Shown here piece after piece: positions 11,934 to 16,064 of a stretch of 64,000 bases of DNA. The position numbers and the translations under genes were made by a program. This stretch comes from Thermosipho ferrireducens (GTDB lineage Bacteria > Thermotogota > Thermotogae > Thermotogales > Fervidobacteriaceae), in assembly GCF_017358165.1 (NCBI RefSeq), contig NZ_CP071446.1:434001-498000 (forward strand), written 5' to 3'. Below the pieces are notes generated by a model that saw only the letters and a list, made by a program, of their open reading frames with translations, was not told the origin of the DNA and ran no database searches. Position 1 is the first letter of the stretch. Each line of letters begins with the position of its first letter.

Positions 11934-12431
11934 TTATATTTTTTCAGAAGTTTTTTCCATACTGGAAATCCCCAGCATAAACATAAATATCCCAACGTAA
12001 ACAAATATATCCCCTATACTAATAATGAAACTTTCATTCCATGGAAGATAAACAGGAATCCAATCTCCCAATAAAAGCTTTATATCAAACTTATCCACCA
12101 CTGTGTGGCGTACCCCTACTCTTAATCCCATCTGTTCCACCAATGACTTTAATGCGGGCATCTTCCATCCAAAAATCATCATTACAAAAGAATTTAAAAG
12201 GGTACCTATTGCCATAAATTTAAATCCTGGAATATGTTTATTCAGAATTAAAAGAGTTATTAACATGGCAAATGATAAGGGCATTAATACCCCTCGAAAG
12301 TAGGGAAGTAATTGAAGAATAAATGGAATAGGAAACAGGTATATATACCTATAAGTTCTTTCGACTACGTATTTTATTCGTTTCGTAATTAGAGAAACTA
12401 TTAAAGCTGCCACAAACACATAAATAATCAC
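11934..12431 (-). CDS. DUF5317-type membrane protein
   Basis: 165 residues with four to five hydrophobic helices and a conserved C-terminal part, LLGDWIP...ISIGDIFVYVGIFMFM, typical of the DUF5317 family. Function unknown. Its ATG overlaps the stop of the upstream HD-GYP gene by four bases (ATGA), which implies co-translation and a shared membrane signalling role. No terminator is evident before tsaB, whose promoter region lies in the next ~180 bases. Confidence 0.75.
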   Translation of the reverse strand: MIIYVFVAALIVSLITKRIKYVVERTYRYIYLFPIPFILQLLPYFRGVLMPLSFAMLITLLILNKHIPGFKFMAIGTLLNSFVMMIFGWKMPALKSLVEQMGLRVGVRHTVVDKFDIKLLLGDWIPVYLPWNESFIISIGDIFVYVGIFMFMLGISSMEKTSEKI

Positions 12432-13726
12432 ACTTTCCCCTCCCCGTGAAGTTCTAAAAACAATTCAACTAAAGAAGGATCAAAAATTACTCCTGAATTT
12501 TCTTTCAGAAATTCTATTGCTTGTTCTTTTGTTAAAGCCGCCCTGTACGGTCTATCACTTGTTAGTGCGTCAAAAACATCCGCTAATGTAATCATTCTTG
12601 ATTCAAGTGGTATTTCATCACCTTTTAAACCATCTGGATATCCTTCTCCATCCCATCTTTCGTGATGGTGTTTAACCCACACAGCTACCGTATTTTTAAA
12701 TTCATTTACCTCCTTAAGAATTTCATACCCTTTTCTGGAATGCTCCTTCATTATTTCATATTCTTCCTTGGACAACTTCCCTGTTTTAATTAACACATTA
12801 TCTGGTATACCAATTTTTCCAACATCATGTAAAAGTGACGCTTTTTTCAACCAATCAATATACTTTTTTGAAAAACCACACTTTGTAGCCAGTTTATCTA
12901 CCAAATCGGCTACTCTTTCTCCATGTCCTGCTGTGTATGGATCCTTTTCCTCCAGACTTTTTGTTAAAGCTATCAACAAATCAAACTTAGCCTCTCTATA
13001 TCTTGCTGCATAATAATTCCCCACCTGAATACTAATAATGGTAATAAGGGAAAGAGGAATCGCAACAATCCCCACAGTTTTATAAAGGAGAAAAATTATG
13101 AAAGTATTCAGAGAATTGGACAGAAGGTTGAAAACCCTGCTTCCGCCAAACAAAAACGTCAACGTTTCCCGACTGAGTTCACCATACATAGACAATAAAA
13201 AGAGTACTATAAAACTTAAATTCACCAGAAAATAGACAAAAGCCACTAACGATAAAAGAAACGATAAATAAATCGGATTATTTGAAGGTGTTACTGAAAA
13301 AATTTTATGAGACAACAGAGAACTTAAAAACGCAGTTAACCCTATCTGGGAAACATTAAACAAAAAATTCCAGTAGTCAGAACTAAAAAGAACCTTAAAT
13401 CTTAAAACCAAAAAACCCAGAAAAGGGATAAGCATTGCCTGATGCGGCATAAGCGCAGTTCCAGCAATTATATTAATAATCATACCCGTGGTTACATATA
13501 ATTCTGCACCTTTAAAGCCCGATTTAACAATAAACGATTGAATTCTAACAGATAACAACTCAAAAAACACAAAAAAGCTCAAAAAAATTAAAAAATTCTT
13601 ATCAAAAAGATCCATGCCATATTTACGGCTATACAAAACAAAAAGGACCATATAAATGGTCCACAAAAGTAATGAATAAGTTTTTTCGCTTCTAAATTCT
13701 TTTAAAACCTTTGAAAACTGTTTCAA
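12428..13726 (-). CDS. multi-pass membrane HD-GYP protein
   Basis: 432 residues. The first ~230 residues form six or more membrane helices. A cytoplasmic HD-GYP domain follows (about 245-425), starting TKSLEEKDPYTAGHGERV, with metal motifs LLHDVGKIGIP and HHHERWDGEGYPDGL. All residues expected for cyclic di-GMP hydrolysis are present. Start TTG behind AGGTGGTG. An extended -10 (TGTTATAAT) lies about 50 bases upstream. It is coupled to the DUF5317 gene, and a 34-residue peptide gene lies immediately upstream in the same direction. Confidence 0.88.
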   Translation of the reverse strand: MKQFSKVLKEFRSEKTYSLLLWTIYMVLFVLYSRKYGMDLFDKNFLIFLSFFVFFELLSVRIQSFIVKSGFKGAELYVTTGMIINIIAGTALMPHQAMLIPFLGFLVLRFKVLFSSDYWNFLFNVSQIGLTAFLSSLLSHKIFSVTPSNNPIYLSFLLSLVAFVYFLVNLSFIVLFLLSMYGELSRETLTFLFGGSRVFNLLSNSLNTFIIFLLYKTVGIVAIPLSLITIISIQVGNYYAARYREAKFDLLIALTKSLEEKDPYTAGHGERVADLVDKLATKCGFSKKYIDWLKKASLLHDVGKIGIPDNVLIKTGKLSKEEYEIMKEHSRKGYEILKEVNEFKNTVAVWVKHHHERWDGEGYPDGLKGDEIPLESRMITLADVFDALTSDRPYRAALTKEQAIEFLKENSGVIFDPSLVELFLELHGEGKV

Positions 13727-13834
13727 TTATTACACCACCTATGAATGCTCGTATTTAATTTCTATATTTCTACAATAAATTATAACATAAAGCCACTTAA
13801 ATTTTTTAAGCTGAGACTTAATAACCGATTTCAA

Positions 13835-13939
13835 TCATCCTTTCTTAATTGGCCACAATTCAAGATTTCCCACAGCTGCTATAACCAATGGAAGTGTCAT
13901 CAAAACCACAACTACTACCTTTCTCCAGATTTTTTTCAT
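13835..13939 (-). CDS. small hydrophobic peptide, 34 residues
   Basis: ATG at 13937-13939 preceded by AAAGGAGGGGG, the strongest ribosome site in this region. The peptide opens MKKIWRKVVVVVLMTLPLVI, a basic start then a hydrophobic stretch like a signal peptide or single membrane helix, and ends in a short polar tail AVGNLELWPIKKG. A promoter with a palindrome lies upstream. It sits about 110 bases before the HD-GYP/DUF5317 pair on the same strand. I do not recognise the family; it could be a secreted signal, a membrane regulator or a leader peptide. Confidence 0.55.
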   Translation of the reverse strand: MKKIWRKVVVVVLMTLPLVIAAVGNLELWPIKKG

Positions 13940-14005
13940 AATTCCCCCTCCTTTGTTTTAGAATTGTCAACACAACATTTAGACAATATTCATCTACATT
14001 AATTG

Positions 14006-14053
14006 ATTTTAATAAACTTTCATAAATCGTCAAGACTTTTATGGAACGTTCCA
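14006..14053 (-). promoter_or_regulatory. promoter and 12-bp palindrome upstream of the 34-residue peptide gene
   Basis: On the minus strand, -35 TTGACG (14028-14033) and -10 TAAAAT (14006-14011), spacer 16. Immediately upstream of the -35 is the perfect palindrome TGGAACGTTCCA (14042-14053), a position fitting an activator site. A further TTGTC-N13-GACAA inverted repeat lies in the leader. Confidence 0.5.
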
Positions 14054-14110
14054 ATTTTTTTATTCTTTTGTGTATAATTATTATATATACATCCTGACAT
14101 TTCCTAAAAT

Positions 14111-14140
14111 AAAATCCGCGGATTTTTTCCCGCGGATTTT
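14111..14140 (-). terminator. intrinsic terminator of glnA
   Basis: An 11-bp stem AAAATCCGCGG / CCGCGGATTTT around an 8-base loop, followed on the minus strand by ATTTTA; begins 18 bases after the glnA stop. Confidence 0.85.
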
Positions 14141-14157
14141 ATTAAATCTAACCTTAA

Positions 14158-15477
14158 TTACACATTTTCATACTTTTTTCTTTCCCATTCTGTCACATAT
14201 ATTGAATAGCTTTTCCATTCTTTCCACTTAAGCTCCATGAATTTTTCGTATATATGATCTCCCAGCACCTCTTTAATCAATGGATCCTTTTCTGCTTCTA
14301 TTAGAGCTTCTTCGAGAGTCTTTGGTAGAGTAGTTATTCCTAATCCTTCTCTCTCTTCTTCATTCATACTGTATATATTCTTTTCAACAGGTTCTGGAGG
14401 TTGTATTTTATTTTTTACTCCATCCAATCCTGCGGCTACTAAAACAGCAAAAGCTAAATATGGATTACACGATGGATCTGGAGCTCTATACTCTAACCTT
14501 GTTCCCATACCACGTGCCATAGGAACTCTTATCAATGCAGAACGATTTCCAAGAGACCAGGCTACATTTACTGGTGCCTCATATCCTGGTACAAGTCTTT
14601 TATAACTATTCACTGTTGGATTGGTTACGGCAGTTATTGCTCTGGCATGTTTTAATACACCACCTACAAAGTATCTCATATTTTCAGAGATATCACCGGT
14701 TTTTTCATCATAAAATCCATTGGAACTTCCATCCTTAGAAAGCAGGCTCAAATGAACGTGCATTCCACTTCCATTAACTCCAAAAAATGGTTTTGGCATA
14801 AAAGTTGCATGTAAATTATTTTTTATAGCAAGAGTTTTTATAACCAATTTAACTGTTTGCACAGCGTCTGCAGAATTTAATGCATCTGCGTATCTGAAGT
14901 CGACCTCGTGTTGAGAAGGAGCAACTTCATGATGAGTAGCTTCAACGTCAATCCCCATTTCCTCGATCATAACAGCAACTTCACTTCTAAGATGCTCGGC
15001 AATGTCTACTGGCAGAAGATCAAAATAACCACCTTCATCTAAAAACTCATAACTTACTTTTCCATTCTTTTTTGGCAACAAAAAGAACTCTACTTCAGGT
15101 CCTGCATGTGGAACAAATCCAAGTCCGGAAGCTTCTTCCATAACAAGCTTCAACCTATACCGGGGATCACCCTCAAAAGGTTCTCCATTAGGCCTGTATA
15201 TATCACATATAAGTCTTGCACTTTTTTGACCTTCAAGAGTCCAGGGAAGGATAGCGAAAGTAGAGGGATCCGGGCGGAGGTACATATCAGATTCATTAAT
15301 CCTTACAAACCCTTCAATAGACGAGCCATCAAACATAATTCCTTTTTCAAATGCACGCTTTAAATCATTCACAGGGATTTCTACATTTTTCAAACTACCG
15401 TTAATGTCTGTAAACTGCAGGCGTATAAATCTTATGTTTTCCTCCTCAACAATTTCAAAAATTCTTTCAATCTCCAT
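14158..15477 (-). CDS. glnA: glutamine synthetase, type I
   Basis: 439 residues. Forms glutamine from glutamate, ammonia and ATP. Visible motifs are FTDINGSLKNVEIP, FDGSSIEGF, GPEVEFFLL, the NGSGMHVHLSL loop and EYRAPDPSCNPYLAF. The length and the absence of the adenylylated-tyrosine segment place it in the GSI-alpha group, which is controlled by feedback rather than adenylylation. ATG 15477 follows AAAGGGGGG. It is monocistronic: its own promoter lies about 110-135 bases upstream and a terminator follows. Confidence 0.96.
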   Translation of the reverse strand: MEIERIFEIVEEENIRFIRLQFTDINGSLKNVEIPVNDLKRAFEKGIMFDGSSIEGFVRINESDMYLRPDPSTFAILPWTLEGQKSARLICDIYRPNGEPFEGDPRYRLKLVMEEASGLGFVPHAGPEVEFFLLPKKNGKVSYEFLDEGGYFDLLPVDIAEHLRSEVAVMIEEMGIDVEATHHEVAPSQHEVDFRYADALNSADAVQTVKLVIKTLAIKNNLHATFMPKPFFGVNGSGMHVHLSLLSKDGSSNGFYDEKTGDISENMRYFVGGVLKHARAITAVTNPTVNSYKRLVPGYEAPVNVAWSLGNRSALIRVPMARGMGTRLEYRAPDPSCNPYLAFAVLVAAGLDGVKNKIQPPEPVEKNIYSMNEEEREGLGITTLPKTLEEALIEAEKDPLIKEVLGDHIYEKFMELKWKEWKSYSIYVTEWERKKYENV

Positions 15478-15613: not shown

Positions 15614-15695
15614 CGTAAAAAAGTAATACTCACTAATTTCCATTATTATAATTTTGAACGAAGCAAAAAATTGGAGGAATATGACCTTTTCTTTT

Positions 15696-16064
15696 ACTAA
15701 CTTCGCAAGATCCTTCGCACTTCGTGCTCAGGACAAACCTTGCTAAAACATTCGCTAACTCTCGCCAATCTGCCAGTTACAAGATTCCTCGTCGCATACG
15801 CTCCTCGGAATGACACATTTCGTAGATGCTATCCCTCATTGTTTTTTTGTCATCCTGAGGAGCACAGCGACGAAGGATCTTGTTTTTTTACCAACACTCG
15901 CTAACTCTCGCTAAATTAAGATTCCTCACCCTTCGGGTTCGGAATGACATGGACGATGGATTTCTCGTTGCATACGCTTCTCGGAATGACATGAGTGGGG
16001 AGCCACTCTCGCTAACACCCGCTAACTCTCGCCAATCACTCACTAACTTTCGTTAACCTCGCTA
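15696..16064. repeat. composite repeat array R2
   Basis: Lies between MOSC and glnA and runs into the MOSC coding end. It contains the cleanest unit, 15848-15949 (102 bp): TGTCATCC...GGATCTTG, TTTTTTTACC, satellites AACACTCGCTAACTCTCGCT, then AAGATTCC...GGAATGACA. A variant module ending CAGGACAAACCTTGC lies at the left, and satellites continue to 16064. Confidence 0.9.

Follow-up and report, generated by a model that had tools for sequence, protein, structure and literature searches.

The window, by which we mean the whole 64,000-nucleotide stretch of Thermosipho ferrireducens DNA analysed here, comes from a genome assembled as a single contig of 1.98 Mb. On its minus strand, glnA is followed by a 34-codon peptide gene (13835-13939), a gene for a 432-residue membrane protein with a TTG start (12428-13726) and a gene for a 165-residue membrane protein (11934-12431). 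From the stop codon of the peptide gene to the start of the second gene there are 108 nt; the second gene overlaps the third by 4 nt and is translationally coupled to it. A sequence-only reading had placed an HD-GYP gene directly downstream of the peptide gene, co-translated with a DUF5317 gene, and both were found.

The product of the peptide gene, MKKIWRKVVVVVLMTLPLVIAAVGNLELWPIKKG, is divided into a leader (residues 1-24), with a basic N-terminus and a hydrophobic core, and a predicted extracytoplasmic tail, NLELWPIKKG (residues 25-34; 13838-13867, minus strand), delimited with the help of the alignment. The tail follows AVG, where cleavage is inferred. The Shine-Dalgarno sequence AAAGGAGGGGG (13944-13954, minus strand) is strong, as first described, and a strong one is kept in relatives too. 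Further upstream, TTGACG and TAAAAT, 16 nt apart (14006-14033, minus strand), match a promoter at 10 of 12 positions and form the sole minus-strand candidate. The proposed hexamers are present, but such sites are no commoner than in shuffled sequences (three, against a shuffle mean of 3.1).

A perfect 12-bp palindrome, TGGAACGTTCCA (14042-14053, no strand), lies 8 bp upstream of the -35 hexamer, as the sequence-only reading had noted. It occurs as an exact match in two places in the whole source genome, but is absent from the loci of other genomes: all four matches among 292 loci belong to the source genome. A conserved operator was rejected, since no copy is found in the loci of other genomes; a lineage-specific operator remains possible.

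Domains and predicted folds of the membrane proteins

The 432-residue protein is a predicted receptor and phosphodiesterase, identified by Pfam, by its model and by structure matches. Its MASE9 domain (residues 38-240; 13007-13615, minus strand) precedes an HD-GYP domain (residues 256-419; 12470-12961, minus strand). It belongs to family PF20972 (MASE9; 1.8e-32, 113.4 bits against a curated cut-off of 24.3), and the 165-residue protein to PF17248 (DUF5317; 2.5e-20, 73.4 bits, cut-off 25). The columns of the motif HHExxDGxGYP are invariant in an alignment of 38 proteins, and the window protein retains it intact as HHERWDGEGYP. By motif and fold the domain is a c-di-GMP phosphodiesterase, hydrolysis itself being inferred.

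In the AlphaFold2 model of the receptor (pLDDT 86.5), the HD part resembles known HD-GYP structures (4mcw, Z 24.8), and residues 12-222 align with ECF S-components: VIA-align superposes them on NikM with Z 13.9 (187 aligned residues, 3.4 Å), and on FolT (12.6), CbiM (12.5), RibU (11.7) and ThiT (10.0), with an identity of only 6-13%. The caution line of this method for helical bundles is Z 13; the best match stands at 13.9 and the matches form a consistent block. Judged from this model, MASE9 probably has an S-component-type fold, although it is a sensor family fused to HD-GYP and not a transporter subunit.

Two receptor positions are of particular concern below. F193 (codon 13148-13150, minus strand), at the end of helix 186-193, is the equivalent of column 201 of the Deinococcal receptors; S59 (codon 13550-13552, minus strand), just past helix 43-58, corresponds approximately to their column 70. 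In S-components, outer loops 1 and 5 frame the ligand pocket. Given an enzymatic domain inside the cell and the S-component topology, the model places the regions of both residues on the outer face.

An orthologue of the DUF5317 protein was modelled with pLDDT 88.5, and neither Foldseek, VIA-align nor a profile search of PDB sequences returned a credible relative. Two aspartates are invariant in its alignment (D125 and D143 in the numbering of the first sequence). With N82 and H111 they would fit an LspA-like aspartyl protease, but these searches gave no structural relative, and we leave that identity open: DUF5317 is treated as a co-occurring partner without an assigned role. We know of no ligand or role assigned to MASE9 or DUF5317. 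The open-licence literature, the only one searched, yielded no paper on DUF5317 or on MASE9 in the sense used here, and none joining HD-GYP with S component and ECF. In one locus outside the Thermotogota (L195, 3005-5092), MASE9 is fused to GAF and SpoIIE phosphatase domains, without HD-GYP; no peptide was found upstream.

Conservation and spread of the peptide gene

Among 20 genomes of the family, homologues of the peptide were found in four genomes of genus g4 and four of g5, at 53-68% identity and with tandem copies. In these eight genomes, as in the source genome, the peptide lies directly upstream of a full-length receptor orthologue. Genera g2 and g3 gave peptide matches at chance level only and no full-length receptor orthologue. 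In the 103 Thermotogota genomes, MASE9 is present in 42, essentially as a single copy, and DUF5317 in 42; 40 genomes have both (Fisher 1e-23), G020 and G081 have MASE9 only, and G075 and G084 DUF5317 only. Three of these four genomes are less than 82% complete; the fourth, G084, has the peptide at a contig end. T. maritima and Thermus composti, which served as named controls, give matches to both profiles.

A member of the peptide family precedes the receptor gene in 41 of the 42 Thermotogota genomes that carry MASE9, two of them partial at contig ends (G016 and G019; L014 and L010). The exception, G101 (L144), offers just 97 nt of upstream sequence before its contig ends. Loss of the frame or of its Shine-Dalgarno sequence in relatives would have refuted the original proposal; both are kept in every testable Thermotogota relative with the receptor. 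Tandem copies number three in L120, two in L121 and three in L118, and a contig scan with DUF5317 and one peptide pattern returned 10 loci, all but one of Thermotogota type.

The proposal had set the peptide beside an HD-GYP/DUF5317 pair. Linkage to the MASE9-HD-GYP gene holds, but DUF5317 is not a constant neighbour: in family f2 it is unlinked to the receptor gene (L127, L128, L133, L135, L136, L139, L140 and L146), following panC, the gene for pantoate-beta-alanine ligase, in the one case examined (L127). The peptide nonetheless stays beside MASE9-HD-GYP in these loci, and it therefore tracks that protein rather than the pair.

In four Thermotogota groups (8, 8, 6 and 8 sequences), pN/pS of the peptide gene is 0.28, 0.18, 0.33 and 0.29, with pN below pS in 99 of 99 pairs. 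Codon comparison thus shows purifying selection, the signature of translation. Conserved in place, with pN/pS of 0.18-0.33 and in an arrangement that recurs in other phyla, the 34-residue frame is a real gene, as had been supposed.

The peptides are about 21-36 residues long, with a basic start, a hydrophobic core, small residues and a short Trp-containing tail. In 20 Thermus-like peptides the mean entropy is 0.25 bits in the leader and 1.29 bits in the last five residues (permutation p 0.0009). AAGA and the Trp do not vary in this set; the leader has a pN/pS of 0.27 and the tail, its Trp excluded, 0.69. Tails include SAHWQ, SLHWK, SANWE, TYHWR and SVFWE. Immediately ahead of the tail, 45 of 47 Deinococci have AGA and the other two VGA; AXA is the textbook signal-peptidase I site. 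A short frame, an export-type leader (judged by eye), a variable tail and an adjoining receptor gene together meet the features of a peptide pheromone precursor.

A wider draw of 390 genomes contained MASE9 in 19 genomes outside the Thermotogota, giving 20 loci, two of which are Deinococci. Of the other 18, counted apart, seven have a clear peptide (L188, L192, L197, L200, L202, L204, L206), L201 and L203 have only a weak candidate, and seven have none upstream (L191, L193, L194, L195, L196, L205, L207); contig ends truncate the last two (L190, L198). DUF5317 is present in 9 of 17 genomes of the class to which G276 belongs, and there the peptide occurs in seven of eight further loci, the remaining one, L262, being cut. 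Identical copies stand in tandem in L268 (three) and L267 (two). Among Deinococci, MASE9 was found in 56 of 101 genomes, and in 49 of 50 genomes of one family. The peptide is present at 51 of 54 Deinococcal loci examined and missing at L289 and L292; one more, L290, is cut. L210 lacks the tail Trp, and L249 and L256 have Phe in its place. Besides Thermotogota and Deinococci, the peptide is present in some Bacillota and further lineages. The labels Thermus-like, Meiothermus-like and Thermotoga-like are inferred from family composition and the named controls.

No receptor was found on viral contigs and no MASE9 on plasmids; the DUF5317 search of plasmids gave one Natranaerobius record. This plasmid of Natranaerobius thermophilus (NZ_CP144220.1), the only named example from Bacillota, has an unannotated 28-codon frame, MNKVVLILVTLLGVVLAGGASFTWGGGG, with AAGGAG, ahead of HD-GYP and DUF5317 genes. 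In the annotation its DUF5317 region is split between two overlapping frames (L187, 4775-5282), and a separate 65-residue frame covers the receptor N-terminus; this copy may be decaying.

As a control, one fixed filter was applied upstream of genes: it required a frame of 18-45 codons with a Shine-Dalgarno sequence, a hydrophobic stretch and a Trp among the nine C-terminal residues. MASE9-HD-GYP genes passed in 81 of 85 cases and other genes at the same loci in 15 of 300, two of the 15 being mislabelled MASE9 genes. The filter's four misses are L249 and L256, which have the peptide with Phe for Trp, and L191 and L193, without peptide. The filter was designed after examples had been seen, and its p-value is not blind.

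Covariation of the peptide tail with the receptor

We name tail positions x2 (Trp minus 2) and x5 (last tail residue) in Deinococci, and x1 (Trp minus 4) in Thermotogota. In a discovery set of 38 Deinococci, Thr at x2 is paired with Tyr at MASE9 column 201 in 11 of 11 cases and Ala with Phe in 16 of 17; bulkier x2 residues are paired with Met, Ile, Val, Ser or Phe. In the charged Thermus-like cases, Lys or Arg at x5 goes with Glu at column 70 and Glu with Arg, with no exception: 18 of 18 charged pairs, among 21 Thermus-like sequences counted.

Predictions were fixed before the receptor residues of a hold-out set were read. Four of its loci (L247, L249, L256 and L260) had already been retrieved by then, and for two of these, L249 and L256, the tails were known but not the receptor residues; the remaining 12 loci were fetched once the predictions were set. 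The x2 rule held for Thr-Tyr (3/3) and Ala-Phe (7/7, with L282 and L283 near-duplicates). Met-Ser in L260 agrees with the discovery set, Met-Phe in L247 departs from it, and Val-Phe in L281 had not been predicted. At x5 and column 70, L282 and L283 have Arg-Glu, while L247 (Lys-Arg) and L291 (Asp-Glu) are failures. The charge rule thus failed in two of three independent Thermus-like hold-out cases, both with frame-broken receptors, and the pairing is weak outside the Thermus-like group.

Four Thermus-like loci (L247, L260, L291 and L292) have a MASE9-HD-GYP frame that is disrupted or N-terminally truncated, with the peptide intact in three. The residue pairs are mismatched in two of these decayed loci, L247 and L291; escape from pairing might be expected where the receptor decays.

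Changes were mapped on an HD-GYP domain tree with 47 Deinococci (the 38 of the discovery set and nine of the hold-out; 92 branches). Column 201 changes 18 times on it and x2 20 times, and 17 of the column-201 changes share a branch with an x2 change (hypergeometric 1.4e-14); among 343 columns the runner-up for x2 reaches 2.9e-3. When parsimony was resolved at random, and on a second tree, 13-17 changes coincide, against a null maximum of 9-10 among 114 and 101 other columns of similar change number. The association of x5 with column 70 is weaker: counting branches gives 0.033, and scoring by charge class 0.012 on one tree and 0.0015 on the other; by branch count the best column for x5 lies in the HD domain, not in MASE9. 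A partial Mantel test relates MASE9 divergence to tail divergence beyond that of HD-GYP (0.35, p 4e-4). The value for the leader is 0.38, and this signal is not tail-specific.

The homologue of column 201 in the window protein is F193 (profile alignment probability 98.2). In 39 Thermotogota proteins its position ranks first of 230 for x1 (7 of 10 changes coincide, 4.3e-4), with no signal from the remaining four positions of the tail. The tail residue involved is Trp minus 4 here, versus Trp minus 2 in Deinococci. In a scan of all tail positions against all columns, none survives correction by itself in Thermotogota.

Co-evolution at single residues supports a contact between tail and receptor, in the absence of binding data. 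It points to contact, and says nothing on a free peptide or on cell-to-cell action. The peptide-plus-membrane-receptor unit of the sequence-only reading is strengthened to this extent, whereas export, cleavage and response are still inferred.

Proposed mechanism, alternatives and related systems

We favour, with some reserve, the view that the peptide is a Trp-tailed ligand of an S-component-like c-di-GMP receptor and probably acts as a secreted pheromone. The gene would encode the precursor of a short Trp-containing signal, inserted in the membrane N-in/C-out by its basic and hydrophobic leader. Cleavage after small residues (AVG; AGA in Thermus-like genomes), by a signal peptidase or else by a specialised protease that might be DUF5317, would free a tail of 4-11 residues, NLELWPIKKG here. 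The tail would bind the outer face of the neighbouring protein's MASE9 domain, at its first and fifth outer loops, and so alter the activity of the attached cytoplasmic HD-GYP phosphodiesterase. Export, cleavage, action from cell to cell, the sign of the response and the role of DUF5317 are all inferences.

The tail-loop co-evolution fits equally well a peptide that is never released: a one-helix partner of its own cell's MASE9, whose outer tail plugs the S-component pocket, the true signal being a small molecule or a metal. The closest folds include NikM and CbiM, and CbiM works with a small membrane protein, CbiN; moreover, purifying selection acts over the whole frame including the core (0.18-0.33; leader 0.27), beyond what an average signal peptide needs. 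On the other hand, a near-constant leader with a tail that varies round a fixed Trp, and identical tandem copies, are commoner in pheromone precursors, and the AGA before the Deinococcal tail is a standard signal-peptidase motif. We consider such a tethered subunit rather unlikely, without setting it aside.

Far less probable is an upstream frame whose translation controls the HD-GYP gene, for instance by sensing tryptophan at terminal Trp codons. Its position directly upstream and the terminal W or WW of many members would suit such a leader, but the Trp is often single and followed by other residues, and the hydrophobic core is strongly conserved at the amino-acid level. Residue-level co-evolution with MASE9 is not expected of a leader; we reject the attenuator reading on that ground, and also because 13650-14200 contains no terminator-like hairpin and no credible RNA family was found. 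Size and hydrophobicity would also allow a small toxin, or an unrelated membrane peptide that merely lies beside the receptor; this is hardly tenable for a peptide whose linkage is fixed over several phyla, which is absent jointly with MASE9 in g2 and g3, and which co-evolves with the receptor. The idea that the frame is untranslated and merely reflects conserved DNA ahead of the receptor gene has only the small size in its favour, and can practically be dismissed with synonymous above nonsynonymous change in all 99 pairs and the Shine-Dalgarno sequence kept.

The favoured reading, a secreted ligand of the MASE9 receptor, recalls the RRNPPA systems of Bacillota (Rap-Phr, Rgg-SHP, ComR-ComS/XIP), which likewise have a tiny precursor beside the receptor gene, a hydrophobic leader and a short variable C-terminal signal. 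XIP is also Trp-rich, and RRNPPA receptors need peptide import. In the partial texts available, duplicated pheromones are known in these systems (PMC11343458) and their receptors are cytoplasmic (PMC9765709). The partner here differs: it joins an S-component-like membrane domain to a c-di-GMP phosphodiesterase, occurs mainly in Thermotogota and Deinococci, and has no TPR match in Pfam, which leaves the RRNPPA receptor definition unmet. With Agr (AgrD-AgrC-AgrB) the system shares a peptide, a polytopic membrane receptor and a small membrane protein that are encoded together, as well as the co-diversification of peptide and receptor. It differs in lacking a histidine kinase, in the absence of Cys from the window peptide, and in its HD-GYP output. 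DUF5317 is not, to our knowledge, AgrB-like, and the partner genes have no AgrB- or AgrC-type Pfam matches, so Agr is not met either. Judged by sequence features alone, the system works like peptide pheromone systems, and by the features tested it is outside RRNPPA and Agr.

We found no prior description of a peptide-MASE9-HD-GYP system in the open-licence literature searched. Peptide quorum sensing has been reported in T. maritima, its identity with this gene not being established, and a survey of the proteomes of 106 thermophilic bacteria found no complete peptide quorum-sensing two-component system, as far as the available part of that paper goes (PMC6022435). The main text of a major review of c-di-GMP sensing lacks the terms pheromone, oligopeptide and autoinducing peptide (PMC8846402). 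Whether this amounts to a new class of peptide signalling is, in our estimate, evenly poised. Such a class would comprise secreted Trp peptides of 4-11 residues, a membrane receptor of S-component fold, c-di-GMP set through HD-GYP and DUF5317 as maturation partner. In Thermotogota and Deinococci it would be either an ancestral trait or a widespread one, with species pherotypes arising from single-residue pairs. If true, heat-loving bacteria have a previously unrecognised peptide signalling system, MASE9 gains a ligand and DUF5317 a pathway. Likely signal peptides could then be named from sequence alone and the question tested in the genetically tractable Thermus. In Thermus, according to the accessible portions of two papers, c-di-GMP binds the traffic ATPase PilF (PMC12002112, PMC11731258).

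Two minor observations concern the noncoding DNA. The second copy of TGGAACGTTCCA (L293, source genome C1:117359-117370) is flanked by an alpha-amylase-like gene on one side and a lipoprotein-like gene on the other. Given the amylase-like neighbour, the palindrome might serve a sugar-responsive regulator as its operator and bring the peptide gene under the same control; there are no direct data on such a regulator. In the window, the intergenic region upstream of glnA (15628-16058) carries imperfect direct repeats, a 24-nt unit present five times with CGCTAACTCTCGC and a 33-nt pair with CTCGGAATGACA, which look like a degenerate repeat element.
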